Below are positions 3,761 to 38,680 of a stretch of DNA of 64,000 bases, piece by piece. The DNA lies in assembly GCF_000299415.1 (NCBI RefSeq), contig NZ_AMPG01000006.1:1-64000 (forward strand), read 5' to 3'. The notes under the pieces are model-generated. The model had not been told where the DNA came from. It did no database searches and saw only the letters and a list, made by a program, of their open reading frames with translations. Every line of letters begins with the position of its first letter. Position 1 is the first letter of the stretch. The position numbers and the translations under genes were made by a program. This DNA comes from Candidatus Microthrix parvicella Bio17-1 (GTDB lineage: Bacteria; Actinomycetota; Acidimicrobiia; Acidimicrobiales; Microtrichaceae).

Positions 3761-4420
3761 ATGGCGAACAAAGCAATCGTTGGACAAAAAGTCGGCATGA
3801 CCCAGGTATGGGGTGACGATTCACAGATTCAGCCCGTCACCGTGGTGAAGGTGGACCCCTGCCGGATCGTGGCGGTTCGTTCCGCCGACGGCGTCGACGG
3901 CTACGAAGCCGTGCAGGTGACCTTCGGAACAAAGTCGGCAAGCAAGCTGACGCTGGCCGAGGCGGGTCATTTCGACAAGGCGGGAGTTGATCCGGGCGTT
4001 CGCCTGGTCGAGCTCCGCATGACCGATGCATCCGCCTACGAGGTGGGTCAGCAGCTCGACGCGTCGATCTTCGCCGCGGGAGACCGGGTGGATGTTGCAG
4101 GGGTGTCGAAGGGTAAAGGCTTCGCCGGCGCCATGAAGCGCCACAACTTTGCCGGTCAGCCGGCAAGCCACGGAGCACACAAGGTGCACCGCAAGCCTGG
4201 TGCGGTCGGCGCATGTGCCACCCCGGGCCGTGTCTTCAAGGGGACCCGCATGCCCGGCCGAATGGGCGGGGAGAAGGTGACCACCCTCAACCTGGAGGTG
4301 GTGAGAGCCGATCCTGAAGCCGGCGTCGTGCTGGTCAAAGGCTCCGTACCCGGCCCGAAGGGGTCCTACATCGTGATTCGCGACGCGGTCAAGGCTCGCG
4401 TCGGCGGAGGTGAGAGCTGA
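3761..4420 (+). CDS. rplC: 50S ribosomal protein L3
   Basis: This is a 219-residue L3, which helps start 50S assembly near the peptidyl transferase centre. The N-terminal KVGMTQVW motif, the SKGKGFAG segment and the central GQPASHGAHKVHRKPG loop are typical. I chose the ATG before ANKAIVGQKVGM, with aagga upstream. The longer frame from 3671 runs through the leader hairpin. It is the first gene of a long operon, with the stop overlapping the rplD start by one base. Confidence 0.97.
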   Translation: MANKAIVGQKVGMTQVWGDDSQIQPVTVVKVDPCRIVAVRSADGVDGYEAVQVTFGTKSASKLTLAEAGHFDKAGVDPGVRLVELRMTDASAYEVGQQLDASIFAAGDRVDVAGVSKGKGFAGAMKRHNFAGQPASHGAHKVHRKPGAVGACATPGRVFKGTRMPGRMGGEKVTTLNLEVVRADPEAGVVLVKGSVPGPKGSYIVIRDAVKARVGGGES

Positions 4421-5067
4421 TGGCAACCGTTGATGTACTGAATCCCAGCGGGTCGCCGTCCGGTTCGGTCGAACTGGACGACACCCTGTTTGGCGTGGAG
4501 CCAAACGTGGCGGTCATGCACCAGGTGGTGACGGCACAATTGGCCGCTCGCCGCAAGGGCACGGCATCCACCAAGACACGTGCCGAGGTGCGTGGCGGTG
4601 GTCGTAAGCCATGGCGCCAGAAGGGCACCGGCAACGCCCGGCAAGGCTCGATTCGTGCGCCCCACTGGCGTGGCGGCGGAGTGGCCCACGGGCCCAAGCC
4701 TCGAAGCTACGCCCAGCGGACCCCCAAGAAGATGAAGCGCCTGGCATTGGCCTCAGCCCTGTCGGACCGTCTGGCCGACAACAGGTTGCTGGTGCTGGAC
4801 GGTTGGGGCCTTGATGTGCCCAACACCAAGTCCGCCAAAGCAGCCCTGGCTGCACTCGGAGCCGAGGGCCGAATCCTGGTCGTGCTCGGACCCGACGATG
4901 GGACCGCCGGCCGTAGCCTGCGCAACCTTCCCGAGGTCACGCTGACCGATGCCGGGCAGGTCACCACCTACGACGTGCTGGTGTCGGATTACGTCATCTA
5001 CACCCGCGGCGCCCTTCCCGGCGCTGATGCACCATCGACCGAGGCCGACACCGGAGACGAGTCATGA
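4420..5067 (+). CDS. rplD: 50S ribosomal protein L4
   Basis: This 215-residue L4 lines the exit tunnel and in many bacteria regulates its own operon. The conserved loop [19 protein letters not shown] is present, as is ALASALSDR. Its start overlaps the rplC stop (TGATG). A short acidic C-terminal tail follows the conserved domain. The L4 family link to S10-operon control makes the upstream rplC leader of interest. Confidence 0.97.
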
Positions 5068-5357
5068 GGGATTCACGCAGCGTCATCATCCGTCCGGTGG
5101 TGTCCGAAAAGTCCTATGGGCTGATCGATGAGGGCGTCTACACCTTCATCGTGGCGCCCGACGCCAACAAGGTGGAGATCCGCCAAGCGGTGGAACAGAT
5201 TTGGGGCGTGTCGGTGGTCAAGGTGAACACCTTGAACCGCCCGGGCAAGCGAATCCGCCAGCGCAAGCGCATGACGTACGGCTCCCGCGCCGATACCAAG
5301 CGGGCCATGGTCACCCTCGCCGAGGGTGACGAGATCGAACTCTTCGAAGTTCGCTGA
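5064..5357 (+). CDS. rplW: 50S ribosomal protein L23
   Basis: This is a 97-residue L23, the tunnel-exit protein that docks trigger factor and SRP. Recognisable segments are [11 protein letters not shown] near the N-terminus, [13 protein letters not shown], and the basic [13 protein letters not shown] loop. The start overlaps the rplD stop by four bases (ATGA), indicating translational coupling. Confidence 0.97.
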
Positions 5358-5368
5358 GAGGGAGTTTC

Positions 5369-6205
<837 letters not shown>

Positions 6206-6244
6206 GTATGAATCCATCGCTCAGCAACGTGAGGAAGTCCTGAT

Positions 6245-6529
6245 ATGCCACGCAGTCTGAAGAAGGGCCCCTTCGTTGACGACCACCTGTTAAAGAAGGT
6301 GGACGCGCTCAACGAGAAAAGCCAGAAGACCGTCATCAAGACGTGGTCGCGTCGCTCGACCATCATCCCCGACATGGTGGGTCACACCATCGCCGTTCAC
6401 GATGGCCGCAAGCACGTGCCCGTGTACGTCACCGAGTCGATGGTGGGCCACAAGCTGGGTGAGTTCGCTCCAACCCGCACCTTCAAGTTCCACGCCGGGC
6501 AGGAGCGCACGGCGCGAGGCGGCCGATAG
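6245..6529 (+). CDS. rpsS: 30S ribosomal protein S19
   Basis: This is a 94-residue S19 of the 30S head. It begins [16 protein letters not shown] and contains [23 protein letters not shown] and the C-terminal [12 protein letters not shown], all diagnostic. A gaggaagtcctgat stretch provides the ribosome-binding site. It is 39 bases after rplB and two bases before rplV. Confidence 0.97.
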
Positions 6530-6531
6530 CC

Positions 6532-7236
6532 ATGACCCAAACCGGAACCAAGACCAACGAGCGCCCCGGCACTCGGGCCGTCCTGCGCCATGCTCGATTC
6601 TCTGCCTACAAGGCGCGGGTCGTGCTCGACCTGATCCGCGACCTGCCCGTCGCCGAGGCCATGGACGAGCTGAACCGCTGCGAGCGCGAGGCGGGTCGTC
6701 CCATCTCCAAGTTGCTGGCATCGGCGGTCGCCAACGCCGGCAACAACGATGGCCTACCGGCCGACGAACTGTTCGTTGCGGCATGCTTCGCCGACGAAGG
6801 CCCCACCATGCGGCGCTTCCGGCCACGAGCGCGAGGGCGAGCCACCCGCATCAACAAGCGGACCACCCACATCACCATCATCGTGGGTCGGCTCTCCTCC
6901 GACGAGATCGCCGAGCGACGCGAGCGCGGCGGGGCACCCGCCGATGCCGCGGCAGCTCGTGCACGCCGTGTTGCAGCGAGCCGAGGCGACAATGCCGCCG
7001 AGGAGACACCTGCGGACGACGAGCCCGCCGAGGAGCCAATCGAGGCCTCTGAGGCGGAGTTGGTCACCGACACGGTCGACGAGAACACCGCCGCCGACCA
7101 AGCCGTCGAGGCAAGCAGCGAGACCGACGCAGACTCCGACGAGTCTGCCGACGACAGCGCCAAGACAGACACAGACGACACCAGCGCAGACTCCGACGAG
7201 TCTGCCGAAGGCAGCGACAGCAAGGACGACGCCTGA
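6532..7236 (+). CDS. rplV: 50S ribosomal protein L22 with long acidic tail
   Basis: The first ~120 residues are a normal L22 ([17 protein letters not shown], the [23 protein letters not shown] tunnel hairpin, shown here in part). They are followed by about 110 extra residues, which double the usual ~113-residue length. The tail is first Ala/Arg-rich, then strongly acidic and low in complexity (Glu, Asp, Ser, Thr, Ala). A 23-bp DNA direct repeat (7129-7151 and 7186-7208) encodes two ADSDESA copies, so the tail grew partly by duplication. It overlaps rpsC by one base. Confidence 0.95.
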
Positions 7237-8141
7237 TGGGACAGAAGGTCAACCCGTACGGCTTCCGGCTGGGAATCACCACGGACTGGAAGTCCAGGTG
7301 GTACGCCGACCGTGAACAGTATGTCGACTACGTGGTCGAAGACTGGGAAATCCGTCGCTACCTGATGAGCCGCATGGCGAACGCAGCCATCAGCCGTATC
7401 GAGGTGGAACGCACCCGTGACCGAGTGCGGATCGATCTGCACACCGCTCGACCGGGCATCGTGATCGGGCGTCGTGGCGCCATGGCCGACGAGCTCCGCC
7501 AGGAGCTGGCCCGCATCACCGACAACCCGAAGGTTCAGCTGAACATCCAGGAGATCAAGCAGCCCGAGCTGGATGCTGCCCTGATCGCCCAGGGCGTGGC
7601 CGACCAACTGGCCAACCGCATGGCATTCCGTCGTGCGATGAAGCGTGCGGTGCAGAACGCCATGAAGGCCGGTGCGCTCGGTATCCGGGTGCAGTGTGGT
7701 GGCCGTCTGGGCGGGGCCGAGATGAGCCGTTCCGAGTGGTACCGCGAGGGGCGGGTGCCGCTGCACACGCTGCGGGCCGATATCGATTACGGCCTCCGTG
7801 AAGCCGCAACCAGCACCGGCCAGGTCGGCGTGAAGGTGTGGCTCTACAAGGGCGACATTCTTCCGTACAAAGCGCAGGGTGAAGACAAGGCCTCCAAGGA
7901 GGCGGCGATGGCGGTGGGCGAGTCCACCGGCCAGGAGGCCACCCCACGCGTGGTCTCGTCCCGTCCGACTCCGCCGAATGCCGGCGATGCCGCCGACGAG
8001 GGCACCGAAGAACCGGCGCCGTTGTTGAAGGAAGCGGATCCGGAGTTCGAGAAGCTGCTCACCGAGGAAGAAGAAATCGAGCGCCAGGCCCAGTCACGTT
8101 CCAAGGGCCCGGAGCACTTCCGACCGAACGAGGGGGAGTGA
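7236..8141 (+). CDS. rpsC: 30S ribosomal protein S3 with extended C-terminus
   Basis: This is a 301-residue S3, which binds mRNA at the entry channel and has helicase activity with S4. [13 protein letters not shown], the KH-domain [14 protein letters not shown] and the C-terminal [10 protein letters not shown] motif are present. After about residue 220 comes a charged extension ending in EHFRPNEGE. Actinobacterial S3 proteins often carry such tails, but this one is on the long side. The ATG overlaps the rplV stop. Confidence 0.97.
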
Positions 8142-21612: not shown

Positions 21613-23244
21613 GTGAACGCACCCACCCCCCAGGAGTCAGGCTCCCCCCGTGTCGACTCCGCCTCCTCCCTCCCCGGGGTCTCCCGGGTGGAGGAGGCCG
21701 TGGGTGCGCTTCGTGGTCCCCGCCAACAGCAGGGCGGATGGATCAGCGGCCTGGTGGCCGGTCTGGCCGCCGCCGGAGCCGCCCTCGGAGTAGCCGAACT
21801 GGTGGCTGCGCCATTCAGTTCGGTCTCATCACCGGTGGTCGCCGTGGGCAATGTTGTCGTCGACAATGTGCCCAATGCCGTCAAGGAATTCGCCATTGCA
21901 ACGTTCGGGCAGAACGACAAGATCGCCCTGATCTTCGGCACCACGATCTTCCTCTTCATCTTTGGTGCGGTGCTCGGCATGCTCACCACCAAGCGCCGCA
22001 TCGCCGCCCCCGTCGGTGCCGGTGTCTTCGCCCTCGTCGGTGCGGTCTCAGCGTTGAGCCGCACCGGCGCAGGGCCGCTCGCCGTTCTCCCCAGCATCCT
22101 GGGCGGTCTCACCGCCGCAGCGGTGCTGGATCTGCTGCTGTGGCCACCACAGCGGCAGGCGGGGGTTTCCGATTCCGCCGACCGTCGTCGATTTCTGGTC
22201 GGCTCCTCCCTCGTCGTCGCAGGTGCGGCGGCGGCCGGCGGGCTCGGGAAGGCCGTTTCCGGACTGTTCAAGGTGTCGACCAATCGGGGAGAGATCGTTC
22301 TGCCCAAGCCGGCGGAGGCCGCAAAGGCTCTTCCTTCTGGCATAGATCCGGACATCGCTGGACTCACCCCCTTCATCACCCCGGCCAAGGACTTCTACCG
22401 GGTGGACACCGCCCTGGAGATCCCCCGGGTCAACGGCAAAGACTGGAAGCTCGACATCCTGGGCATGGTGGACAACGAGCGCAGCTACTCGCTCGCCGAC
22501 CTGCTTGACCGCCCCCTCATCGAGCGCACGATCACGCTGGTGTGCGTCTCCAACCAGGTTGGGGGGCGTCTGGCCGGCACCGCGAAGTGGTTGGGCGTGC
22601 CGCTCGCCGAGCTCCTCGACGAGGCCGGACCGCAGGACGGGGCCGATCAGGTGCTCAGCCGTTCGGTGGACGACTTCACTGCCAGCACCCCACTGAAGAC
22701 GATCTACGACGGGCGGGACGCAATGGTGGTCGTCGGTATGAACGGCGAGCCGTTGTCGCTGGAACGGGGCTTCCCGGCACGTCTGCTGGTGCCCGGACTG
22801 TACGGATTCGTCTCGGCAACCAAGTGGCTGTCCGAACTGAACGTCACCACCTTTGAGGCCGAGCAGGCCTACTGGACCAAGCGTGACTGGGCCACCGACG
22901 CACCGATCAAGACCCTCAGCCGCATCGACCGCCCCGGCGGCCTCGGCGACACGGTCGATCCTGGCACGGTGCCCGTGGCGGGCGTCGCCTGGGACCCGCA
23001 CGTCGGGATCGACAAGGTGGAACTCAAAATCGACGACGCCGCCTGGGTCGAAGCCGACCTGGCACCCGTCCCCTCAGCCGACACCTGGGTCCAGTGGTCC
23101 TACCCCTGGAAGGCCACCTCAGGCAGTCACACCATCGTTGTCAGAGCAACCAATGCCGACGGCGAAACTCAACCGTTCGACCGGGTCAAACCCATCCCAG
23201 ATGGTGCAACCGGTTGGCAAAAGATCGTGGTGAACGTGACATGA
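21613..23244 (+). CDS. Membrane-anchored molybdopterin oxidoreductase, sulfite-oxidase fold
   Basis: The protein is 543 residues long. The N-terminus has about four membrane segments (~47-68, 104-124, 132-150, 154-176). A Tat-like RRRFLVGSS with a fifth hydrophobic segment comes at ~191-212, and then a periplasmic sulfite-oxidase-type domain. Cys311 in TLVCVSNQVGG is the expected molybdenum ligand. A C-terminal immunoglobulin-like dimerisation domain (VAGVAWDPHVGIDKVELKID) follows. Its substrate is unknown. The GTG start has a purine-rich gaagaagag before it. Its place beside the sigma/anti-sigma pair and the fasciclin gene suggests a shared envelope function. Confidence 0.85.
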   Translation: MNAPTPQESGSPRVDSASSLPGVSRVEEAVGALRGPRQQQGGWISGLVAGLAAAGAALGVAELVAAPFSSVSSPVVAVGNVVVDNVPNAVKEFAIATFGQNDKIALIFGTTIFLFIFGAVLGMLTTKRRIAAPVGAGVFALVGAVSALSRTGAGPLAVLPSILGGLTAAAVLDLLLWPPQRQAGVSDSADRRRFLVGSSLVVAGAAAAGGLGKAVSGLFKVSTNRGEIVLPKPAEAAKALPSGIDPDIAGLTPFITPAKDFYRVDTALEIPRVNGKDWKLDILGMVDNERSYSLADLLDRPLIERTITLVCVSNQVGGRLAGTAKWLGVPLAELLDEAGPQDGADQVLSRSVDDFTASTPLKTIYDGRDAMVVVGMNGEPLSLERGFPARLLVPGLYGFVSATKWLSELNVTTFEAEQAYWTKRDWATDAPIKTLSRIDRPGGLGDTVDPGTVPVAGVAWDPHVGIDKVELKIDDAAWVEADLAPVPSADTWVQWSYPWKATSGSHTIVVRATNADGETQPFDRVKPIPDGATGWQKIVVNVT

Positions 23245-23288
23245 ACGTCCACTACGTCCACGAAAACCCCTGCGAAAGGAACCCATTC

Positions 23289-24455
23289 ATGCGTTTCAAC
23301 ACCAAGCCCCGCAAAGCCATCGTCGCCTTCGGCCTCGTCGGTTCATTGATTCTCGCCGGTTGTTCCGACGATGACGGAAGCACCAATGCGTCCGACACGT
23401 CGGCTCAGACCACCGAGACGACGGCCGCCTCCGGCGACACTGCCTCAGCAGATTTCAGTCAGGACAACTTTGGTGAGGGCTGCGCTGCGGTCCCAGCTGA
23501 CGGGAAGGGCAGCTTCGAGGGCATGTCGGAGGATCCGGTGGCCACTGCGGCCTCCAACAACCCGGCGCTTTCCACTCTGGTTGCCGCGGTCACCGCCGCC
23601 AACCTTGGTGACACCCTGAACTCGGCTGAGGCCCTGACGGTGTTCGCTCCCGCCGATTCGGCGTTTCAGAAGATCCCCAAGGAGACGCTGGACACGCTGC
23701 TGGCCGACCCGACCGGTGACCTGACCGACATCTTGAAGGTGCATGTGGTTGAGGGCAAGATGAGCGCCCAGGACCTGATCGATGCCGGTTCGGTGAAGAG
23801 CCTGCAGGGCTCCGAGCTGAAGATCACCGCTGATGGCGACACCATGAAGGTGAACGACTCCACTGTGGTCTGCGGCAATGTTCAGACCGCCAACGCCACC
23901 GTGTTCATCATCGACTCGGTGCTCATGCCCGAGGCAGCCGACGCCGCCTCCGGCGACACTGCCTCCGCTGCGTTCGCCGACGACAACTTTGGTGAGGGCT
24001 GCGCTGCGGTCCCAGCTGACGGGAAGGGCAGCTTCGAGGGCATGTCGGAGGATCCGGTGGCCACTGCGGCCTCCAACAACCCGGCGCTTTCCACTCTGGT
24101 TGCCGCGGTCACCGCCGCCAACCTTGGTGACACCCTGAACTCGGCTGAGGCCCTGACGGTGTTCGCTCCCGCCGATTCGGCGTTTCAGAAGATCCCCAAG
24201 GAGACGCTGGACACGCTGCTGGCCGACCCGACCGGTGACCTGACCGACATCTTGAAGGTGCATGTGGTTGAGGGCAAGATGAGCGCCCAGGACCTGATCG
24301 ATGCCGGTTCGGTGAAGAGCCTGCAGGGCTCCGAGCTGAAGATCACCGCTGATGGCGACACCATGAAGGTGAACGACTCCACTGTGGTCTGCGGCAATGT
24401 TCAGACCGCCAACGCCACCGTGTTCATCATCGACTCGGTGCTGATGCCCAGCTAG
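23289..24455 (+). CDS. Lipoprotein with two near-identical fasciclin (FAS1) domains
   Basis: This 388-residue lipoprotein has a signal with SLILAGC (Cys25). After a Ser/Thr/Ala linker come two FAS1 domains (~60-205 and ~233-387), each with the H1 motif TVFAPADSAF and the H2 motif ILKVHVVEG. FAS1 domains mediate adhesion at the cell surface. MPT70 and MPT83 of mycobacteria, which are SigK targets, are relatives. The domains are encoded by a 519-bp tandem duplication that is identical over 461 bp. The ATG with aaagga upstream is preferred over one 16 codons earlier. Confidence 0.92.
   Translation: MRFNTKPRKAIVAFGLVGSLILAGCSDDDGSTNASDTSAQTTETTAASGDTASADFSQDNFGEGCAAVPADGKGSFEGMSEDPVATAASNNPALSTLVAAVTAANLGDTLNSAEALTVFAPADSAFQKIPKETLDTLLADPTGDLTDILKVHVVEGKMSAQDLIDAGSVKSLQGSELKITADGDTMKVNDSTVVCGNVQTANATVFIIDSVLMPEAADAASGDTASAAFADDNFGEGCAAVPADGKGSFEGMSEDPVATAASNNPALSTLVAAVTAANLGDTLNSAEALTVFAPADSAFQKIPKETLDTLLADPTGDLTDILKVHVVEGKMSAQDLIDAGSVKSLQGSELKITADGDTMKVNDSTVVCGNVQTANATVFIIDSVLMPS
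23463..24442 (+). repeat. 519-bp tandem duplication inside the fasciclin gene
   Basis: Bases 23463-23923 are repeated at 23982-24442 with no difference seen, silent sites included. Just upstream the copies diverge for about 20 bases, then match again at gccgcctccggcgacactgc. The first mismatch at the 3' end is ctc versus ctg. This indicates a recent duplication or ongoing gene conversion. Confidence 0.92.
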
Positions 24456-29994: not shown

Positions 29995-30001
29995 TGACGC
30001 G

Positions 30002-30943
30002 ATGGCGACGGCAACACACCTCACTCACACGACGCCGTCTGCGGTCGCGGGCTCGAGCGCTAGAGGGTGGAGTGCGATCGGGGCGTACGTGGCGCTCACC
30101 AAACCCCGGATCATCGAACTGTTGTTGATCGAGACCGTGCCGGTGATGATCGTCGCGCAGCGTGGCCTGCCGTCGATCTGGCTCATGGTGGCCACCGTGG
30201 TCGGGGGCACGCTGTCGGCGGGCGGAGCCAACGCCGTCAACATGTTCATCGACCGTGACATCGACGCCAAGATGAAGCGCACGGCAAACCGCCCCCTGGT
30301 GACCGGAGCGGTCACCCCACGCAACGCCCTGATCTTCGCGCTGACGATCGAGGTGGTTGCCGTGACCCTGCTGTGGTTTGCGGTCAATCCGCTCAGCGCC
30401 ATGCTGGCGTTCGCCTCGTTTGCGTTTTACGTGGGCGTGTACTCGATGTGGCTGAAACGTCGATACTCCTCGAACATCGTCATCGGTGGCGCCGCAGGGG
30501 CAGGTCCGGTGCTGATTGGCTGGGCGGCCGTCACCGGCTCGCTGGGCTGGGCGCCATGGTTGCTGTTCCTGCTGATCTTCCTGTGGACGCCGCCACACTT
30601 CTGGGCGCTGGCGGTGAAGTACCGCGAGGACTACGCCTCGGTCAACGTGCCGATGCTGCCATCGGTCACGACGCTGAACGTCACCGCCCGCAAGATCCTC
30701 GCCTACACGCTGGCCCTGGTGGTGGTGTCGCTGGTGCTGGCACCGGTGGCCGACCTGGGTTGGATCTACATGGGGGCGGCCCTGATCAGCGGTGGAGTGT
30801 TCATCTGGTCTGCACTTGCTGTGCTGCGAACACCCACTCCCGCTGCGGCGATGAGGCTGTTCGGATGGTCGATCACCTATATCACTGTCCTGTTCGGGGC
30901 GATGGCCGTCGACCAGTTGGCAGGGCTGGGCTGGCCCTGGTGA
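30002..30943 (+). CDS. ctaB: Protoheme IX farnesyltransferase (heme O synthase)
   Basis: This is a 313-residue UbiA-family membrane enzyme that adds the farnesyl tail to heme b. The first Asp motif is NMFIDRDIDAKMKRTANRPL. The second is in KYREDYASVNVPMLP. About eight membrane segments are predicted. The frame extends upstream, but the ATG at 30002 fits the family length and has a -10 seven bases away. Confidence 0.96.
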   Translation: MATATHLTHTTPSAVAGSSARGWSAIGAYVALTKPRIIELLLIETVPVMIVAQRGLPSIWLMVATVVGGTLSAGGANAVNMFIDRDIDAKMKRTANRPLVTGAVTPRNALIFALTIEVVAVTLLWFAVNPLSAMLAFASFAFYVGVYSMWLKRRYSSNIVIGGAAGAGPVLIGWAAVTGSLGWAPWLLFLLIFLWTPPHFWALAVKYREDYASVNVPMLPSVTTLNVTARKILAYTLALVVVSLVLAPVADLGWIYMGAALISGGVFIWSALAVLRTPTPAAAMRLFGWSITYITVLFGAMAVDQLAGLGWPW

Positions 30944-31089: not shown

Positions 31090-32724
31090 ATGGCAGTAAC
31101 CGACACCACGGTTGAGGCGCCCCCTGCCGCACCACCCGCGCTGGCAGCGGCAAAGCCCGAGAGCCGGCCGCAGGCGGCCGCAGCCGAGTTGACCGCGATC
31201 GAGCATTACCTCGGTGCCGTCGACCACAAGCGTCTGGGACGGCGGTTCACGCTGGCGGCGCTGCTGGTGACCGCAGGTCTGTTCGTGGCACGGGCGGTGG
31301 GCTGGGCCGGCGCCAACAGCGCTGATCCACTGCTGGGCACATGGTCGGTGCAGGTTCGACAGTCGGCAGACATCGCCGTCATCGTGCTCGGGGTGATGGC
31401 CCTCATCGTGGGACTCGCCATCTATGTGGTGCCGCTTCAGGTTGGCGCCCGCGGCATTTCGTTCCCACGGTTGGTGGCGCTGTCGTATTACTCATGGCTG
31501 ATCTCCACGGTGCTGTACGTCGTGTCGATCCTCGGTGACGGGGGTCTGGGCGGTAACTCCTACGAGATGGGGCGCCTCGGGATCTTTTCGCTCGCAGCCG
31601 GCGCGGTTTCGCTGTTGGGCGGCATGATCGCAGTGATGACCACGGTGCTCACGTTGCGGGCTCCCGGGATGACGCTTGCCCGCACCCCGATGTTCGCCTA
31701 CTCGATGTTGGTGTCGGGGGCGCTGTGGCTCGCAACGGTCCCGGCGATTGTGGCGGTCGGCGTGCTGATGCAGGCCAATCGTGCCGAAGCAGGCGCCATC
31801 AAGATTGGCGCCGTTGCGGACCTGCGATTTCTTGGCTGGCAACCTGCGATCTGGATCATCGCCATCCCGGTGATCGGCTTGGCCGTCGACGTTCTGCCGG
31901 TGGCCACCGGCGCCCGCCTGATGCAGCGCTTCGTCTTTCGAGGTCTGATCGTCGTACTTGGCGTCGCCTCTTTCGGGGTCTGGGCGGTCGACCCCAACCT
32001 GGCGGTCAACACATTTGTCTGGGCTGCACTGGCCGTGCTGGCCCTCGTGGCGGTGTTGGCCACCCTGGCAGGGTTGCTTCCGCAACTTCGTCGACTCAGC
32101 GGCGCTCCGGCCGCCCCAGACGCCCTGGTTGGTGTGCTGGCAGCACTGGGGCTCCTCGCATTGGCCGGCATCGTCGGAACTTTGGCAGCACTCAATACCT
32201 ACGGCGGCGGTGAGGACGGGCTGCTGGGTTTGCCTGCGGTCAACGGACTGATCGACGGTCAATCCAACATGATCCTCGGTGGTGCGGTCGCCGGTTTGTT
32301 GGCTGCCCTCGCCTTCTGGGGCGTCAAGTTCACGGGTTCCATGCCTGCCAAGGGCGCAGCGGCGGGCATGGCGCTGCTGGCTGCGCTTGGCGGCCTGCTG
32401 GCTGGCGTGGGCGGAGTGATCGACGCTGTTGCATCCATCGATGGCGGCGCCGGTGCGCCTGAGACGGCCGGTTGGCTGATTGCAGCGGGTTCGGTCCTGC
32501 TGGCGCTGAGCGTTCTGGGTGCCGCCGGTGGGTTGGCTGCCGGGCTGCGCGGAGGTGAGTCTGATGGTCCTGTCGATCCATTCGACGGTCACACGCTGGA
32601 GTGGCTCACGTCCTCTCCGCCGAGCACAAACAACTTCGATGACGAGTTGCCCGAGGTGGTCTCCGCCTCGCCGCTGCTGGACGCTCGTGAGGCGTCCGGC
32701 ACTGCCGAAGGGAGCGAGCAATGA
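31090..32724 (+). CDS. Heme-copper oxidase subunit I paralogue lacking all metal ligands
   Basis: This is a 544-residue protein with about 12 hydrophobic segments. It aligns by eye with the true CtaD at 35426: VDHKRLG (44-50) with VDHKRIG, YVVPLQVGARGISFPR (112-127) with YIIPLQIGARDVAFPR, LRAPGM (189-194) with MRAPGM, and a C-terminal HTLEWL with RTLEWT. The catalytic residues are gone. The helix II heme His is Ala93, HPEVY is QPAIW (251-255), the copper HH pair is VD (300-301), and the AHFH heme pair falls in DGQS (389-392). It therefore cannot bind heme or CuB in the normal way. It is likely a structural or assembly component. A gagg site precedes the ATG. Confidence 0.85.
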   Translation: MAVTDTTVEAPPAAPPALAAAKPESRPQAAAAELTAIEHYLGAVDHKRLGRRFTLAALLVTAGLFVARAVGWAGANSADPLLGTWSVQVRQSADIAVIVLGVMALIVGLAIYVVPLQVGARGISFPRLVALSYYSWLISTVLYVVSILGDGGLGGNSYEMGRLGIFSLAAGAVSLLGGMIAVMTTVLTLRAPGMTLARTPMFAYSMLVSGALWLATVPAIVAVGVLMQANRAEAGAIKIGAVADLRFLGWQPAIWIIAIPVIGLAVDVLPVATGARLMQRFVFRGLIVVLGVASFGVWAVDPNLAVNTFVWAALAVLALVAVLATLAGLLPQLRRLSGAPAAPDALVGVLAALGLLALAGIVGTLAALNTYGGGEDGLLGLPAVNGLIDGQSNMILGGAVAGLLAALAFWGVKFTGSMPAKGAAAGMALLAALGGLLAGVGGVIDAVASIDGGAGAPETAGWLIAAGSVLLALSVLGAAGGLAAGLRGGESDGPVDPFDGHTLEWLTSSPPSTNNFDDELPEVVSASPLLDAREASGTAEGSEQ

Positions 32725-33299
32725 GCACCATCCCCGCCGAGGTGACGCCCGCGGTGTTGCCCAAACGCCGCCAGACGGTGGCGGGTGCGGCCTTCGCCGC
32801 AGCCTCATCCGCCATGCTGGTGGTCCTGTTGCTTGGCAACTACCTGGAGATTCGCTCCGCCTCGGAGAAGTTCTTTGACGGCGTCTCGATGCCGCTCGCT
32901 CAGCCCAACGTGATGTTCTGGGGTCTTGGCCTCTCGGTGCTGTCGATCCAATGGGCGGTGTGGGCCATCGCCAGGGACGAGCGGTCTCAGGCCTATTGGG
33001 CCATCGGGATTACAGCGCTGCTGGGGCTGTCGTTTCTCAACAGCACCTGGTACTTGATGTCGCAAAGTGACCTGGCGGTTGGCGTCCAACCCGAGGCCGG
33101 CGCAACCTTCGCCGTGGTGGGAGCGCATGTCGCCATGGTGCTGGTGGGCCTCTTGATGGTGGCCGTCATGGCCTTCCGCACATTTGGTGGACAGTTCTCC
33201 AGCCGCTATCCCGACGGATGGTCGGCGGCTGCGCTCTATTGGCATACCACGGTCGGCGTGTACGTACTGGTTTGGTACGCCGTCTACGTCACGAAGTGA
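32721..33299 (+). CDS. Cytochrome oxidase subunit III-like membrane protein
   Basis: This is a 192-residue protein with about five membrane helices. The end (GAHVAMVLVGLLMV ... ALYWHTTVGVYVLVWYAVYV) resembles the last helices of CtaE (GFHGVHVSFGILML ... LYWHFVDVVWILIF), including the YWH. The N-terminal half is more divergent. The ATGA overlap with the preceding subunit I paralogue implies that the two act together. A role as partner of the ligand-free subunit is inferred. Confidence 0.75.
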   Translation: MSTIPAEVTPAVLPKRRQTVAGAAFAAASSAMLVVLLLGNYLEIRSASEKFFDGVSMPLAQPNVMFWGLGLSVLSIQWAVWAIARDERSQAYWAIGITALLGLSFLNSTWYLMSQSDLAVGVQPEAGATFAVVGAHVAMVLVGLLMVAVMAFRTFGGQFSSRYPDGWSAAALYWHTTVGVYVLVWYAVYVTK

Positions 33300-33312
33300 G
33301 GCGAAGGCACCC

Positions 33313-34206
33313 ATGATCAACACAGGGTCACGTACCTACTTTGGCCTCGCAATCGGGGCCTTCATTTCAGCCGTGCTGTATGGCTTCATCACCAACACCA
33401 TGGACGCGGGCACGTGGAGCACACTTGCCGGCGACGGTGCGGTGGGCGCTGTTCTCGGTCCGTTGACGTTCGGCTACAAGGGCGGCGTCGGCGACCACTT
33501 TGGCTATGCCGCGTTGATGGGTTTTGCTGGGCTCAGCGTCGGCCTGGGCGCGCTGACCACCGCATTTCGAGACGGCGACGCCGTGTCGATCGTGGAGGTG
33601 GAAGCACCTGACCGTTCCTACGTCGACCAGCCGCCCATGGATGTCGTGCCCTGGCCTGCACTGTTTGCCCTTGCCCTCGGTATCGCAGTGGTCGGCCTGT
33701 CGTTCCAGCCGTTTCTCTTTGGTCTGGGTTTGTTCGCTGCGTTCCTGATCGGTGCCGAGTGGACACTGACCGTCTGGAGCGAGCGCACCTCGGCCGATCC
33801 GGAGGTCAACCGCACGGCGCGCCGCCGGGTTTTGTGGCCTCTTGAGGTGCCGGTGGGCGTTGCGGTCGGTCTTGGCATCGTGGTGTTTGCGCTTTCCCGT
33901 CTCTTCCTGGCCACCGCCGGTATGGGCGCAGCGATCATTGCCGCCGGGTTGGCGCTGGCCGTCATGTCCACCGCATTCGCGCTGTCGGCTCGGCCCACCA
34001 TCAATCGTGGCGTCGTGTTGGCCGTGGTGATCCTGTTTGGCGTCATCGTGATCGGCGCCGGCATCTGGGGCGGTCTGGCCGACGATCACAAAGAGCATCC
34101 CGAGGACAATGAGGCCGCCTGGCTGCTGGTGGACAACCAGGGCCAGACTGGTGCGATGCCGTCCTCGATCTCTGCACCGGGGCCATCCGCCCTGGTGGCA
34201 GCGTAA
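33313..34206 (+). CDS. Multi-pass membrane protein of the oxidase operon
   Basis: This is a 297-residue protein with about seven or eight membrane segments and no recognised catalytic motif. The first ~160 residues (short helix, glycine-rich loop, then PWPALFALALGIAVVGL) recall the layout of the small actinobacterial oxidase subunit IV, but the similarity is weak. The second half adds three or four helices and a hydrophilic tail. It lies 13 bases after the subunit III-like gene and 21 before ctaC, so it is probably an accessory subunit of the same complex. Confidence 0.6.
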   Translation: MINTGSRTYFGLAIGAFISAVLYGFITNTMDAGTWSTLAGDGAVGAVLGPLTFGYKGGVGDHFGYAALMGFAGLSVGLGALTTAFRDGDAVSIVEVEAPDRSYVDQPPMDVVPWPALFALALGIAVVGLSFQPFLFGLGLFAAFLIGAEWTLTVWSERTSADPEVNRTARRRVLWPLEVPVGVAVGLGIVVFALSRLFLATAGMGAAIIAAGLALAVMSTAFALSARPTINRGVVLAVVILFGVIVIGAGIWGGLADDHKEHPEDNEAAWLLVDNQGQTGAMPSSISAPGPSALVAA

Positions 34207-34227: not shown

Positions 34228-35403
34228 ATGGACCCTTCTATGAACCTCCTCAGCAGACTTCCCGCACCGGTTCGCCGCACCGTGCACGGCGTGGTTGGCG
34301 TCGCCTTGGTGGCGGCGTTGGCGTCGTGTGGCAACCAGGACACCTATCCGCTGACCACCCTCAGCCCCAAGGGACAGCAGGCGGACACGATCCACACCCT
34401 CGTCAAGCCGATCTTCATCATCGCCGGCGTGGTGTTTGTCGTCGTGCAGGTGGTGATCGTGGTCATCGTGATCAAGTTCCGCCGTCGCCGGGGCGAAGAG
34501 CATGGTGAGAACGACCCGGTGCAGATCCATGGCAACACCCCGCTCGAGCTCACTTGGACTGCTCTGCCGGCGATCCTGCTGGCTGGTCTGGCCGTCCTGA
34601 ACGTCCAGACGATCTTCAAGCTGGAGCAGCGGGTTCCAGACGCCATCCATGTCGACGTGTACGGACAGCAGTGGTGGTGGGAGTATCGATACGACCTCGA
34701 CTCCGATGGTCAACCCGACATCATCACCGCAAACCAGATGGTGGTACCGGCGGGCCGTCAAGTTGAACTGAATATCCGCAGCCGCGACGTCATCCATTCG
34801 TTCTGGATCCCCGCGCTGAATGGAAAGATGGATGCCAGTCCAGGCTCCACACACTTCATGGCCATCAATGCCAACAAGCCAGGCATTTACGAAGGTCAGT
34901 GCACCGAATTCTGTGGACTGTCGCACGGTTACATGCGCATGGAGGTCAAGGCCTTGACCCCGGCGGACTACGACCAGTGGGTGACCGATCAGACCGCGTC
35001 CCCCGCAGAGCCGGGCAACAAGTTGGCCGAGGAGGGTCGCACGGCCTTTCTGTCGCAGTGCGCCTACTGCCACCAGGTGAACGGATTGACGGCCGAGGGC
35101 GAGTACAGCAATGCGGGGCCGGTGGCCGACTACAAGGGCCTCGACGGCAAAGCCGTGCCCACCGTCCGACCCGGCGTGGCGCCAAACCTCACTCACCTGA
35201 TGTCCAGGGAGCGCTTTTCGGGCAACATGTTCCCCCTTCACTACGAGGACGGAAAGCCCGATGAGGGCAACCTCAAGGACTGGCTGACAGATCCAAAAGC
35301 CATGAAACCGATGATGCCCGACAACCAGCAGGGCATGCCGAACCTCAACCTCGACCCGGCCACAATCGATGCCCTGGTCGCCTATCTCGTCACCCTCAAC
35401 TGA
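34228..35403 (+). CDS. ctaC: Cytochrome c oxidase subunit II fused to cytochrome c (caa3 type)
   Basis: This is a 391-residue lipoprotein (LASC lipobox, Cys34) with two membrane helices (~62-83, ~109-130). The CuA site is complete: His190, then C225-x-E227-x-C229, His233 and Met236 (QCTEFCGLSHGYM). A C-terminal cytochrome c domain has CAYCH (278-282). It accepts electrons and passes them to CtaD. The fusion marks a caa3-type oxidase. The ATG at 34228 or one four codons later could be the start. Confidence 0.95.
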   Translation: MDPSMNLLSRLPAPVRRTVHGVVGVALVAALASCGNQDTYPLTTLSPKGQQADTIHTLVKPIFIIAGVVFVVVQVVIVVIVIKFRRRRGEEHGENDPVQIHGNTPLELTWTALPAILLAGLAVLNVQTIFKLEQRVPDAIHVDVYGQQWWWEYRYDLDSDGQPDIITANQMVVPAGRQVELNIRSRDVIHSFWIPALNGKMDASPGSTHFMAINANKPGIYEGQCTEFCGLSHGYMRMEVKALTPADYDQWVTDQTASPAEPGNKLAEEGRTAFLSQCAYCHQVNGLTAEGEYSNAGPVADYKGLDGKAVPTVRPGVAPNLTHLMSRERFSGNMFPLHYEDGKPDEGNLKDWLTDPKAMKPMMPDNQQGMPNLNLDPATIDALVAYLVTLN

Positions 35404-35425
35404 CCCAACGGATCGAAGGACCAAC

Positions 35426-37537
35426 ATGACGATCGTTGAACCAGACAAGAAAGACCTCCCGGCAACCGTCGACCCAGACGGCAACGGCTCGGGGGCCTTA
35501 GTGCCATCCACCAACGGAGCGCAGCCGGCGCGGCCTCTTGGCGTCTTCACCCGCCCGCAGAGCACCACCGGTTGGCGCTCTTGGATCACCACGGTGGACC
35601 ACAAGCGCATCGGCATCATGTATGCCTGCACGGCCATGGTGTTCTTCGTGATCGGCGGGAGCGAAGCGTTGCTGATTCGTGCGCAACTTGCTGCGCCGGG
35701 TCAGAAGTTGCTGTCAGCCGACCTGTACAACCAGGTCTTCACGATGCACGGCATCACGATGATCTTCCTCTTCATCATGCCGTTCGCTGCAGGCATCATG
35801 AACTACATCATCCCGCTGCAGATCGGTGCCAGGGATGTGGCCTTTCCCCGAATGAATGCGCTGAGCTATTGGGTCTACCTGTTTGGCGCCATCTTCGTGA
35901 ACAGCTCGTGGTTCCTCGGCGGCGGGGCCGATGGTGGCTGGTTCAACTACGCACCCAACTCCAGCGTGGTCTTTTCACCCAGCCACGGCATCGACTTTTA
36001 TGCGGTCGGTCTCCAGATCGTGGGCCTCGCCTCACTGATCGGCTCGATCAACCTCATTGTGACGGTGTTCAACATGAGGGCTCCGGGCATGACGTGGTGG
36101 CGTATTCCGACCACCACCTGGATGTCCCTCGTCACCCAGTTCCTGCTTGCATTCGCAGTGCCGGTCATTTCGGTGGCGTTGTTCCTGCTGACCTTTGACC
36201 GTCGTTTCGGCGCCACCTTCTTCAACGCATCCAAGGGTGGCGATCCGTTCCTGTGGCAGCACCTGTTCTGGATCTTCGGCCACCCCGAGGTGTACATCAT
36301 CGTGATGCCGGCCTTCGGCATCGTGTCCGACATCATCCCTGTGTTCAGCCGTAAGCCGCTGTTTGGCTATCGCTTCGTGGTGTTCTCAGGTATCGCCATC
36401 GGCTTCCTGGGCTTCGGCGTGTGGGCGCACCACATGTTCGCCTCGGGCATGGGGCCCATGTCGGTCACCGCGTTCTCGTTGGCAACCATGACCATCGCAG
36501 TACCAACCGGCGTGAAGGTGCTCAACTGGATGGCCACCATGTGGGGCGGCCGTATCCGCATGACGGTGGCCATGATGTATTCGGTTGCCTTCGTTGCCAT
36601 GTTCACCATCGGTGGACTGTCGGGCGTGACCCACGCCTTCGCCTCGGCCGACCAACAACAGACGGACACCTATTACATCGTCGCTCACTTCCATTACGTG
36701 ATCTTCGGTGGGGGAGTCTTGGGCTTCCTGGCGGCCGTCTACTACTGGTACCCGAAGATCTTCGGCTACCTGCTCCAGGAAAAGCTGGGCAAGGTTGCAT
36801 TCTGGTTCGTGTTCGTGGGTTTCAACGCCACCTTCGGGCCGATGCACGTGTTGGGCATGGAAGGTATGAGCCGCCGGATCTTCACCTACAGCGACTACCA
36901 GGGTTTCAACCTCTGGAACATGGTGGCCAGTATCGGCGCCTACACCATGGCCATCGGCGTTGCCCTGTTCCTCTACAACGTCTACTCCAGCTACAAGGCT
37001 CACAAGGCCAACCCGGTAGCCGTCGGGCCGGACCCATGGGACGCCCGAACCCTGGAGTGGACCATCCCGTGCCCCACTCCCGAGTACAACTATGACCCGA
37101 TCCCCACCGTGCACGAGCTCGACGAGGCCTGGTACCTGAAGTACGGCCACGATGAGGACGGCCGCCCGGTGCGTATCGCAAACATCGAGGATGTCGCACA
37201 GAAGGGCGATTCGGTCGGCGTGCACCTTCCGTCGCCGTCCTACCAGCCCATCCTGCTGGCCTCGGGCCTGCCGTTCATCGGTTACGGGGTCATCTTCAAC
37301 CTGTGGTTTGCCGTGCTCGGCGCTGCGCTGGTCATCGCCGGCATGGTCGGCTGGGCGTTGGAACCACCCGATGACGTCGATACAGCTCACGATGCGCACC
37401 ACGACGTCGGCCCCTCCGAGGATGCCGAGACGGCCCTCTCCGACGGGTCGGATCAGGACGAGCCAACCGACGCAGCTGCCGCCGACATGCAGGTGAGCGA
37501 CGCGAAGGTTGCAACCGAGGAGCCCGCCAATGTCTGA
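35426..37537 (+). CDS. ctaD: Cytochrome c oxidase subunit I
   Basis: This 703-residue subunit is the catalytic core. All ligands are present: His108 and His423 for heme a, His421 for heme a3, and His286, His335 and His336 for CuB, with the cross-linking Tyr290. Glu288 (HPEVY) and the K-channel Lys364 (PTGVKVLNW) mark an A-type proton-pumping enzyme. After helix XII a long extension adds DARTLEWTIPCPTPEYNY, a further pair of hydrophobic segments (~605-650) and an acidic tail. A gaagga site precedes the ATG. Confidence 0.97.
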   Translation: MTIVEPDKKDLPATVDPDGNGSGALVPSTNGAQPARPLGVFTRPQSTTGWRSWITTVDHKRIGIMYACTAMVFFVIGGSEALLIRAQLAAPGQKLLSADLYNQVFTMHGITMIFLFIMPFAAGIMNYIIPLQIGARDVAFPRMNALSYWVYLFGAIFVNSSWFLGGGADGGWFNYAPNSSVVFSPSHGIDFYAVGLQIVGLASLIGSINLIVTVFNMRAPGMTWWRIPTTTWMSLVTQFLLAFAVPVISVALFLLTFDRRFGATFFNASKGGDPFLWQHLFWIFGHPEVYIIVMPAFGIVSDIIPVFSRKPLFGYRFVVFSGIAIGFLGFGVWAHHMFASGMGPMSVTAFSLATMTIAVPTGVKVLNWMATMWGGRIRMTVAMMYSVAFVAMFTIGGLSGVTHAFASADQQQTDTYYIVAHFHYVIFGGGVLGFLAAVYYWYPKIFGYLLQEKLGKVAFWFVFVGFNATFGPMHVLGMEGMSRRIFTYSDYQGFNLWNMVASIGAYTMAIGVALFLYNVYSSYKAHKANPVAVGPDPWDARTLEWTIPCPTPEYNYDPIPTVHELDEAWYLKYGHDEDGRPVRIANIEDVAQKGDSVGVHLPSPSYQPILLASGLPFIGYGVIFNLWFAVLGAALVIAGMVGWALEPPDDVDTAHDAHHDVGPSEDAETALSDGSDQDEPTDAAAADMQVSDAKVATEEPANV

Positions 37538-38180
37538 TACCGCCACGATCACTGCGGGCGCTGACGGCTCCGAGGCCGGCCACGGTCATGGAGCGGTCCA
37601 TGACACCGGCACCGGCGTCTCCAACGAGAAGTTGGGCATGTGGGTGTTTCTCGGCTCGGACTGCATGCTCTTCGGTGGCTTGATCTCCACCTACCTGCTG
37701 TACAAGAACCGCCCGCTTGCACCTGGCATCTCCGGGTCCACCGAGCGAATCTCCGATGTGTTCGACATTGCGTTCACCTCGGCCAGTTCGTTCGTGTTGC
37801 TTATGAGCTCGCTGACCATGGTGTTGGCGGTGACCTCAATCGCACGCGGTGACCATCACCGCCTGCGGCTCTGGCTGGGAACCACAGCGTTTCTTGGTGC
37901 GATCTTCATCGGTGGTCAGGTGTACGAGTTCACCGAGTTCGTCAGGGAGGGTTTCGGCTACACGACCAACGTGTCGTCGTCGGCATTCTTCACTCTCACC
38001 GGGTTTCACGGTGTCCACGTCAGTTTCGGCATCCTCATGCTGCTGACGTTGCTGGTGCTGTCGTTCAAGGACCGGATCCCCCAATCCAAGGCCGAGTCGG
38101 TGGAGATCATCGGCTTGTATTGGCACTTCGTCGATGTGGTGTGGATTCTCATCTTCACCGTCGTCTACCTGATCAAGTAG
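37530..38180 (+). CDS. ctaE: Cytochrome c oxidase subunit III
   Basis: This is a 216-residue membrane subunit with about five helices: KLGMWVFLGSDCMLFGGLIS, FHGVHVSFGILML and the terminal LYWHFVDVVWILIFTVVYL (partial). It stabilises subunit I and its proton uptake. The ATG overlaps the ctaD stop by eight bases, with gagga upstream. A longer frame from 37509 is not supported. Confidence 0.95.
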   Translation: MSDTATITAGADGSEAGHGHGAVHDTGTGVSNEKLGMWVFLGSDCMLFGGLISTYLLYKNRPLAPGISGSTERISDVFDIAFTSASSFVLLMSSLTMVLAVTSIARGDHHRLRLWLGTTAFLGAIFIGGQVYEFTEFVREGFGYTTNVSSSAFFTLTGFHGVHVSFGILMLLTLLVLSFKDRIPQSKAESVEIIGLYWHFVDVVWILIFTVVYLIK

Positions 38181-38191
38181 GAGCGTCTCCC

Positions 38192-38680
38192 GTGAGCACC
38201 ACCAGCCCTGAAGACTCGGGTTCGTCCAGCATCGAGTCACTACCCGGCTCGCCATTCAGCGAGCACGACACGCTGACCGCCGCTGAAATGGCCACCCTTG
38301 AGGCCGATCCCGGCCTCGATCGCATGGTGCACCACTCCGACATGATCTATGTCAAGGTTGGCGCATTGCTGGCGGTGCTGACCGCCATCGAGATCGCACT
38401 GCCCGAACTCCTCGACAACGGCAGGATCTATGGTCCGATCCTGATGGTCTTGATGTTGATCAAGTTCCTCATGGTGGCCGGGTTCTTTATGCACCTGCGC
38501 TATGAGAGCAAAGTGCTGAGCAGGGTGTTCTACGGGGGCGCCATCGCTGCGGTGATCGTGTACACCGCCGTGCTCTCCGTCTTTGTGTTCTGGGTGGACT
38601 CGGGCATCCCGGAGTTCAATGACCCACCGCCTCCGCAGACGACGGTGCCCCTTGACGCGGCGCTCACACCCGGCGGATAG
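38192..38680 (+). CDS. ctaF: Cytochrome c oxidase subunit IV-like protein
   Basis: This is a 162-residue protein with three membrane helices (YVKVGALLAVLTAIEIALPE; ILMVLMLIKFLMVAGFFMHL; a third ending VFVFWV), the pattern of the prokaryotic COX4 family. The MHLRYES motif after helix 2 is characteristic. The GTG start has aggag eight bases before it. It is the last gene of the oxidase operon. Confidence 0.87.
   Translation: MSTTSPEDSGSSSIESLPGSPFSEHDTLTAAEMATLEADPGLDRMVHHSDMIYVKVGALLAVLTAIEIALPELLDNGRIYGPILMVLMLIKFLMVAGFFMHLRYESKVLSRVFYGGAIAAVIVYTAVLSVFVFWVDSGIPEFNDPPPPQTTVPLDAALTPGG

Follow-up and report, generated by a model that had tools for sequence, protein, structure and literature searches.

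Metal sites are what define the haem-copper oxidase superfamily. Its family A subunit I (CtaD, CoxA; TIGR02891) is the closest described relative of a protein, here named X1, encoded in a 64-kb stretch of DNA from Candidatus Microthrix parvicella Bio17-1 (64,000 nucleotides; "the window"). X1 shares with family A subunit I the 12-helix fold and the PLQ, FPR, RAPGM and TLEW motifs, and differs from it in having no ligands for haem a, haem a3 or CuB and no D- or K-channel residues. Two further genes, X3 and X4, follow X1; their nearest described counterparts are subunit III (PF00510, COX3) and the mycobacterial cytochrome c oxidase polypeptide 4, respectively. The gene order in the window was ctaB, X1, X3, X4 and then a complete caa3 set, ctaC-ctaD-ctaE-ctaF (Table 1). 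An oxidase core free of metal sites is maintained here across many genomes of a single order. The three genes may encode a redox-dead pseudo-oxidase core retained as a putative structural partner of the caa3 oxidase, a reading to which we assign a probability of roughly 0.5. No description of the X1-X3-X4 module was found in those parts of the open-access PMC full texts that were accessible, PMC9145763 included.

Table 1. Genes of the oxidase locus in the 64-kb window.
Gene and product	Positions	Strand	Basis
CtaB, UbiA-family, inferred by position to be haem O synthase; start also inferred	29999..30943	+	
X1, 544 aa, COX1 (subunit I) fold	31090..32724	+	Sequence matches and predicted model
X3, subunit III-like (COX3), 192 aa	32721..33299	+	Sequence matches
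X4, 297 aa, first half putatively subunit IV (CtaF)-like	33313..34206	+	Profile comparison
CtaC, subunit II of the true caa3 oxidase, carrying a cytochrome c domain	34228..35403	+	
CtaD, true subunit I, six His and Tyr all present	35369..37537	+	
CtaE, true subunit III	37530..38180	+	
CtaF, COX4_pro family, start uncertain	38120..38680	+	

The X1 reading frame was intact, and its GC content by codon position (71.5, 52.2 and 76.1%) was consistent with coding. X1 matched Pfam COX1 at 1.1e-19 (71 bits, above the cut-off of 34.8) and was 27% identical to the CtaD of the window (E 1e-29). Against the NCBIfam model TIGR02891 it scored 105.7 bits, below the cut-off of 670.75, whereas the CtaD of the window scored 684.6. 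None of the seven active-site residues (the six ligand histidines and the cross-link Tyr) was present in X1. Ala93 occupied the position of the helix II His, Q251-P-A-I-W255 stood where CtaD has HPEVY, V-D replaced the HH pair, and the helix X region contained no His. These replacements had all been named correctly in an earlier note made from the sequence alone, and its description of X1 as a ligand-free homologue of subunit I was borne out by the COX1 match, the alignment with CtaD and the empty site. X1 contained three histidines in all (39, 46 and 501), none at a ligand position. At the positions equivalent to the channel residues D124, N131 and K354 and to E278, the Glu of HPEVY (Paracoccus numbering), X1 had G, V, T and A, respectively.

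An AlphaFold2 model of X1 (pLDDT 70.9, pTM 0.75) predicted a 12-helix bundle. The structure prediction that the earlier note had proposed for this product returned a subunit I fold: among solved subunit I chains the best match was 6adq_F (21% identity and Z 35.1 across 452 residues). True CtaD proteins made up two of the five rows in the alignment behind the model, which favours a subunit I fold. The model is not independent proof, but it agrees with the sequence evidence, and together they point to a subunit I fold for X1.

X3 passed the Pfam COX3 cut-off (4.6e-9; 36.9 bits vs 23.8) and fell well below the NCBIfam subunit III cut-offs for CyoC (27.6 bits vs 223.75) and QoxC (15.5 vs 239.9). 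It overlapped X1 by four bases (ATGA), and a subunit III-like partner with this overlap had been anticipated. The two genes had been taken for a pair; both are present, but X4 is a third gene in the same interval. No Pfam or NCBIfam family matched the X4 of the window above cut-off. Positions 41-145 of a profile built from 34 X4 proteins matched the mycobacterial polypeptide 4 (9wcx chain m, E 2.1e-4). X4 differs from that protein in its additional membrane-spanning helices, and the X4 of some relatives also has a blue-copper domain. The AlphaFold2 model of X4 (pLDDT 47) was too poor for use. The second half of X4 shared homology with the membrane portion of a cupredoxin gene that lies beside caa3 elsewhere in the phylum. 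Seven loci outside the order were fetched from hits of the X4 profile; in six (L133-L138) the homologue of this half, together with its cupredoxin, was a separate gene after ctaF, a further tie of the module to caa3, while the hit in the seventh (L139) was a different, 715-aa frame. This membrane-anchored cupredoxin, with PF13473 in the one tested (L133), stands alone in those genomes, whereas in X4 the membrane part is fused to a subunit IV-like half and, in the window, the copper domain is missing.

Two side observations concern these subunits. The cupredoxin after ctaF in L133-L138 is itself a possible partner of caa3. In the window, the C-terminal extension of CtaD (residues ~608-665) matched Cyt_c_ox_IV (PF12270; 28.7 bits vs a cut-off of 26.9) and is a second subunit IV-like piece in the operon.

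The distribution of the module was followed in 61 genomes, with caa3-type CtaD defined as at least 53% identity to the CtaD of the window, a limit fixed after the results had been seen. Caa3-type CtaD was found in 51 genomes, and 50 of these had module genes. X4 was found in 48 of the 51. The three caa3 genomes in which it was not found were G025, where X1 and X3 lie at the end of a contig; G056, where the end of a contig holds X1, in two frames, and the beginning of X3; and G032, the one with no module genes, which is 66% complete and has a contig beginning inside ctaD. X4 was absent from eight of the ten genomes that had no caa3-type CtaD. Among these ten, the module of G036 adjoined a more divergent oxidase, and G055 had X1 and X3 together with a truncated X4, beyond which ctaC-F were missing. 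At that last locus (L042, G055:C84, ~4200-8100) X1 and X3 were open, a stop shortened X4 and ABC-transporter genes came next; either ctaC-F were deleted recently or the assembly is at fault, in a genome with 6% contamination.

Across the 35 fetched loci with X1 (the window included; L148 and L051 represent one contig), ctaB was upstream in all and ctaC downstream in 34. Because of these neighbours, the position of X1 at this locus is more than chance. The module of G060 lay ~4.7 kb away from ctaC. Matches to the X4 profile covering at least 200 of its 288 positions were confined to the order and family of the window in samples of 148 genomes of the class and 246 of the phylum; the longest partial match outside the order (G071) covered positions 111-272. 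The caa3 operons of other orders of the class (L137-L139) had no module, and their genomes gave one subunit I match each. These operons, like the arrangements in G060 and G055, weigh against a structural partnership of the module with caa3. When named genomes were scanned with X3 only, two loci came back, L148 and L149. The record holding L148 (QEUP01000003.1) is titled Acidobacteria bacterium and is probably a mislabelled genome. X1 matched 797 plasmid records, all below 60% identity and none over 80% of its length; among the ten matches listed, four carried an oxidase annotation and the others none. Genes of the X1 type can be counted as oxidases by automatic annotation.

The subunit I alignment and tree comprised 112 rows: 59 with all seven active-site residues (the CtaD of the window appears twice) and 53 X1 rows. 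The X1 rows were those without the full seven-residue site, and this definition is not circular because a branch with support 100 separates the 53 from the 59 complete rows. The HPEVY His was kept in none of the 53. No CuB His remained in 51 rows and one remained in two, so that never more than one of the three was present. All three haem histidines were kept in six rows and only the low-spin pair in two more; L175, outside the 53-row set, also kept the low-spin pair. The haem-ligand set was missing from the other 45 rows, and 37 of the 53 had none of the six histidines. Equivalents of D124, N131 and K354, and of the propionate arginines R473/R474, were kept in no X1 row. The HPEVY Glu was present in four, three of them haem-keeping.

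The earlier note had taken ligand loss as a property of the protein and had counted homologues with ligands at shifted positions as evidence against it. Complete loss holds for the window, but elsewhere in the order, in other families, there are homologues that retain haem histidines, at canonical positions, and never the CuB set. L149, with three haem histidines, was sister to L014, in which only the helix II His is left (support 100). If regain is excluded, haems were therefore lost more than once, and accepting branches of 80-87 would add further losses. Taken together, the alignment and tree suggest that CuB was lost first and the haems repeatedly afterwards, with the X1 of the window representing a late stage of this stepwise loss. 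Living relatives show the intermediate stages.

These haem-keeping rows bear on the possibility that the module is an assembly factor, a temporary template or holding complex for haem A insertion or for caa3 subunit assembly that stays outside the finished enzyme. Eight X1 rows hold a haem-ligand set and in no case a CuB site, a pattern conceivable for a protein that holds haem, and the presence of ctaB upstream of X1 in all 35 fetched loci would suit the same role. Direct handling of haem is unlikely for the 45 rows without the set, though, and three oxidase-type subunits kept together would seem to exceed what a chaperone needs. On balance we think an assembly role unlikely.

A type-1 copper motif was found in the X4 of six operons, all with a haem-keeping X1, and PF13473 cupredoxin was confirmed in the three tested X4 proteins with this motif. 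The motif occurred in six of the eight rows with the haem-ligand set and in none of the 43 other rows with X4 in view; two further X1 rows had no X4 within the locus. For 12 of these 43, the fetched locus stopped before the end of X4, and the corresponding open frames in the genomes (285-303 aa) were too short for a cupredoxin domain. Counting L175, which has the haem pair and no motif, the motif accompanied six of nine haem-keeping operons; those without it were L039, L149 and L175. Fisher's test gave 1.6e-6 and 4.1e-6 for motif against haem-keeping, values that are not probabilities, since the rows are related. These haem-keeping, CuB-less forms with a blue-copper domain constitute a further redox type, for which the open-access text searched gave no description. 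In family f7 (L035, L143 and L144) X4 extended 118-129 residues past the profile and had no copper motif; the extension may be a cupredoxin without its ligands.

A recent copy of the adjacent ctaD was ruled out as the origin of X1, which attached outside the caa3 CtaD clade in the subunit I tree (unrooted, quick and long-branched). Scores with the X1 profile were 370-442 for eight short-tailed oxidases compared with 326-364 for complete caa3 CtaD, and three other short oxidases scored 264-303. The tail of X1 resembled short-tailed oxidase tails by eye. A short-tailed second oxidase occurs in the same class (family f36, L129-L132) in the order ctaC-ctaD-ctaE-subunit IV-like gene, with ctaB seen before these genes in three of the four loci; save for ctaC, this is the order ctaB-X1-X3-X4. 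Its subunit III was the closest to X3, at 93-100 bits with the X3 profile vs 36-67 for caa3 CtaE, and its subunit IV-like gene matched the X4 profile weakly (28-38 bits). Unlike the module, this oxidase has ctaC and all seven active-site residues. With the subunit I scores mixed, we lean towards a derivation of the module from a short-tailed oxidase that lacked ctaC, with a cupredoxin gene fused to subunit IV.

X1 is under purifying selection in related pairs. Its dN/dS was 0.047-0.133 in seven related pairs, of which five fall in one genus and which share genomes; dS was near or above 1 in G007/G019 and G082/G198. Values for X3 were 0.042-0.120, those for X4 0.048-0.134 (six pairs), and those for CtaD 0.015-0.053 in six of the seven. 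Three pairs that are more distant or fragmentary (G067/G090, G016/G001 and G011/G022) lay outside the quoted range, with X1 at 0.256-0.322; the CtaD value of G016/G001 (69% identity) probably compares different copies. Relaxed substitution in a gene confined to one genome, which the earlier note would have counted against its reading, was not the pattern of these pairs, a result that applies to the relatives and not to the X1 of the window itself. Some relaxation is nevertheless real, because X1 evolved at 2.5 to 8 times the dN/dS of CtaD within the same pairs and the X1 of the window had the longest end branch in the tree (2.06).

Such relaxation could mark a slowly decaying remnant, a former oxidase held in place by operon linkage and drifting without function. 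The losses of CuB, haems, blue copper and channel residues, the higher dN/dS of X1, the very long branch of the window's X1 and the truncated X4 of G055 all fit such decay. Drift of this kind is at odds with dN/dS far below 1 in related pairs, with X1 frames that are long and open across many families, with the retention of module genes by 50 of 51 caa3 genomes and with invariant residues. The PLQ Gln, FPR Arg, RAPGM Arg and TLEW Glu were present in all 53 X1 rows, and in the family of the window the old haem a3 His was Gln in 29 of 29 rows, an invariant residue at a dead haem site. We regard a decaying remnant as the least probable of the explanations considered.

The second CuB His was also replaced by Gln in 24 of the 29 rows of that family, with Val in the window. 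A conserved Gln in the old metal site and the predicted 12-helix bundle would be compatible with some other membrane function, in which the metal-free subunit I bundle serves as a channel or as a quinone- or gas-binding unit. Against such a function, the D-channel, K-channel and haem-propionate residues are lost, and the invariant charged columns of X1 (R127, R190 and E504) are common to CtaD and outline no X1-specific charged path. Nor is a quinol dehydrogenase missing, as 54 of the 61 genomes have a cytochrome b (PF13631). We consider this alternative quite improbable. A quinol dehydrogenase replacing bc1 was rejected as not needed, the contig of the window being among those with PF13631. 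NrfD-type proteins were found in 17 of the 61 genomes.

A structural partner of caa3 fits best, because the cofactors are lost while three subunits, the linkage to caa3 and purifying selection are kept. X1, X3 and X4 would correspond to subunits I, III and IV, respectively, of an aa3-type oxidase with no subunit II. Most likely, judging from gene content and order, this pseudo-oxidase core would assemble in the membrane, free of cofactors, beside the caa3 enzyme encoded by the same operon; it might serve as a docking or dimerisation protomer or as a link to the bc complex. The ancestor would have been a second, short-tailed oxidase minus its ctaC, followed by a CuB-less electron carrier with haem and blue copper; the haems, more than once, and the blue copper would then have been lost and the protein contacts kept. 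Among the roles proposed in the earlier note, a scaffold appears the best remaining idea, and a proton-path dimer partner is unlikely given that the equivalents of D124, N131 and K354 are gone in every X1 row. More tentatively, and less likely than not in our view, complex IV of this order could be a hetero-oligomer in which one working caa3 protomer is paired with one pseudo-protomer (subunits I, III and IV), the latter descended from a CuB-less haem and blue-copper intermediate that passed electrons to caa3 and later became purely structural in several lineages, that of the window included. The module offers a natural test of what the complex IV fold does beyond chemistry, such as dimerisation and supercomplex assembly.

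Elsewhere in the window, positions 23094-24455 encode a predicted protein with two fasciclin domains whose amino-acid repeats were near-identical by eye; the repeat probably arose by internal duplication in the recent past.
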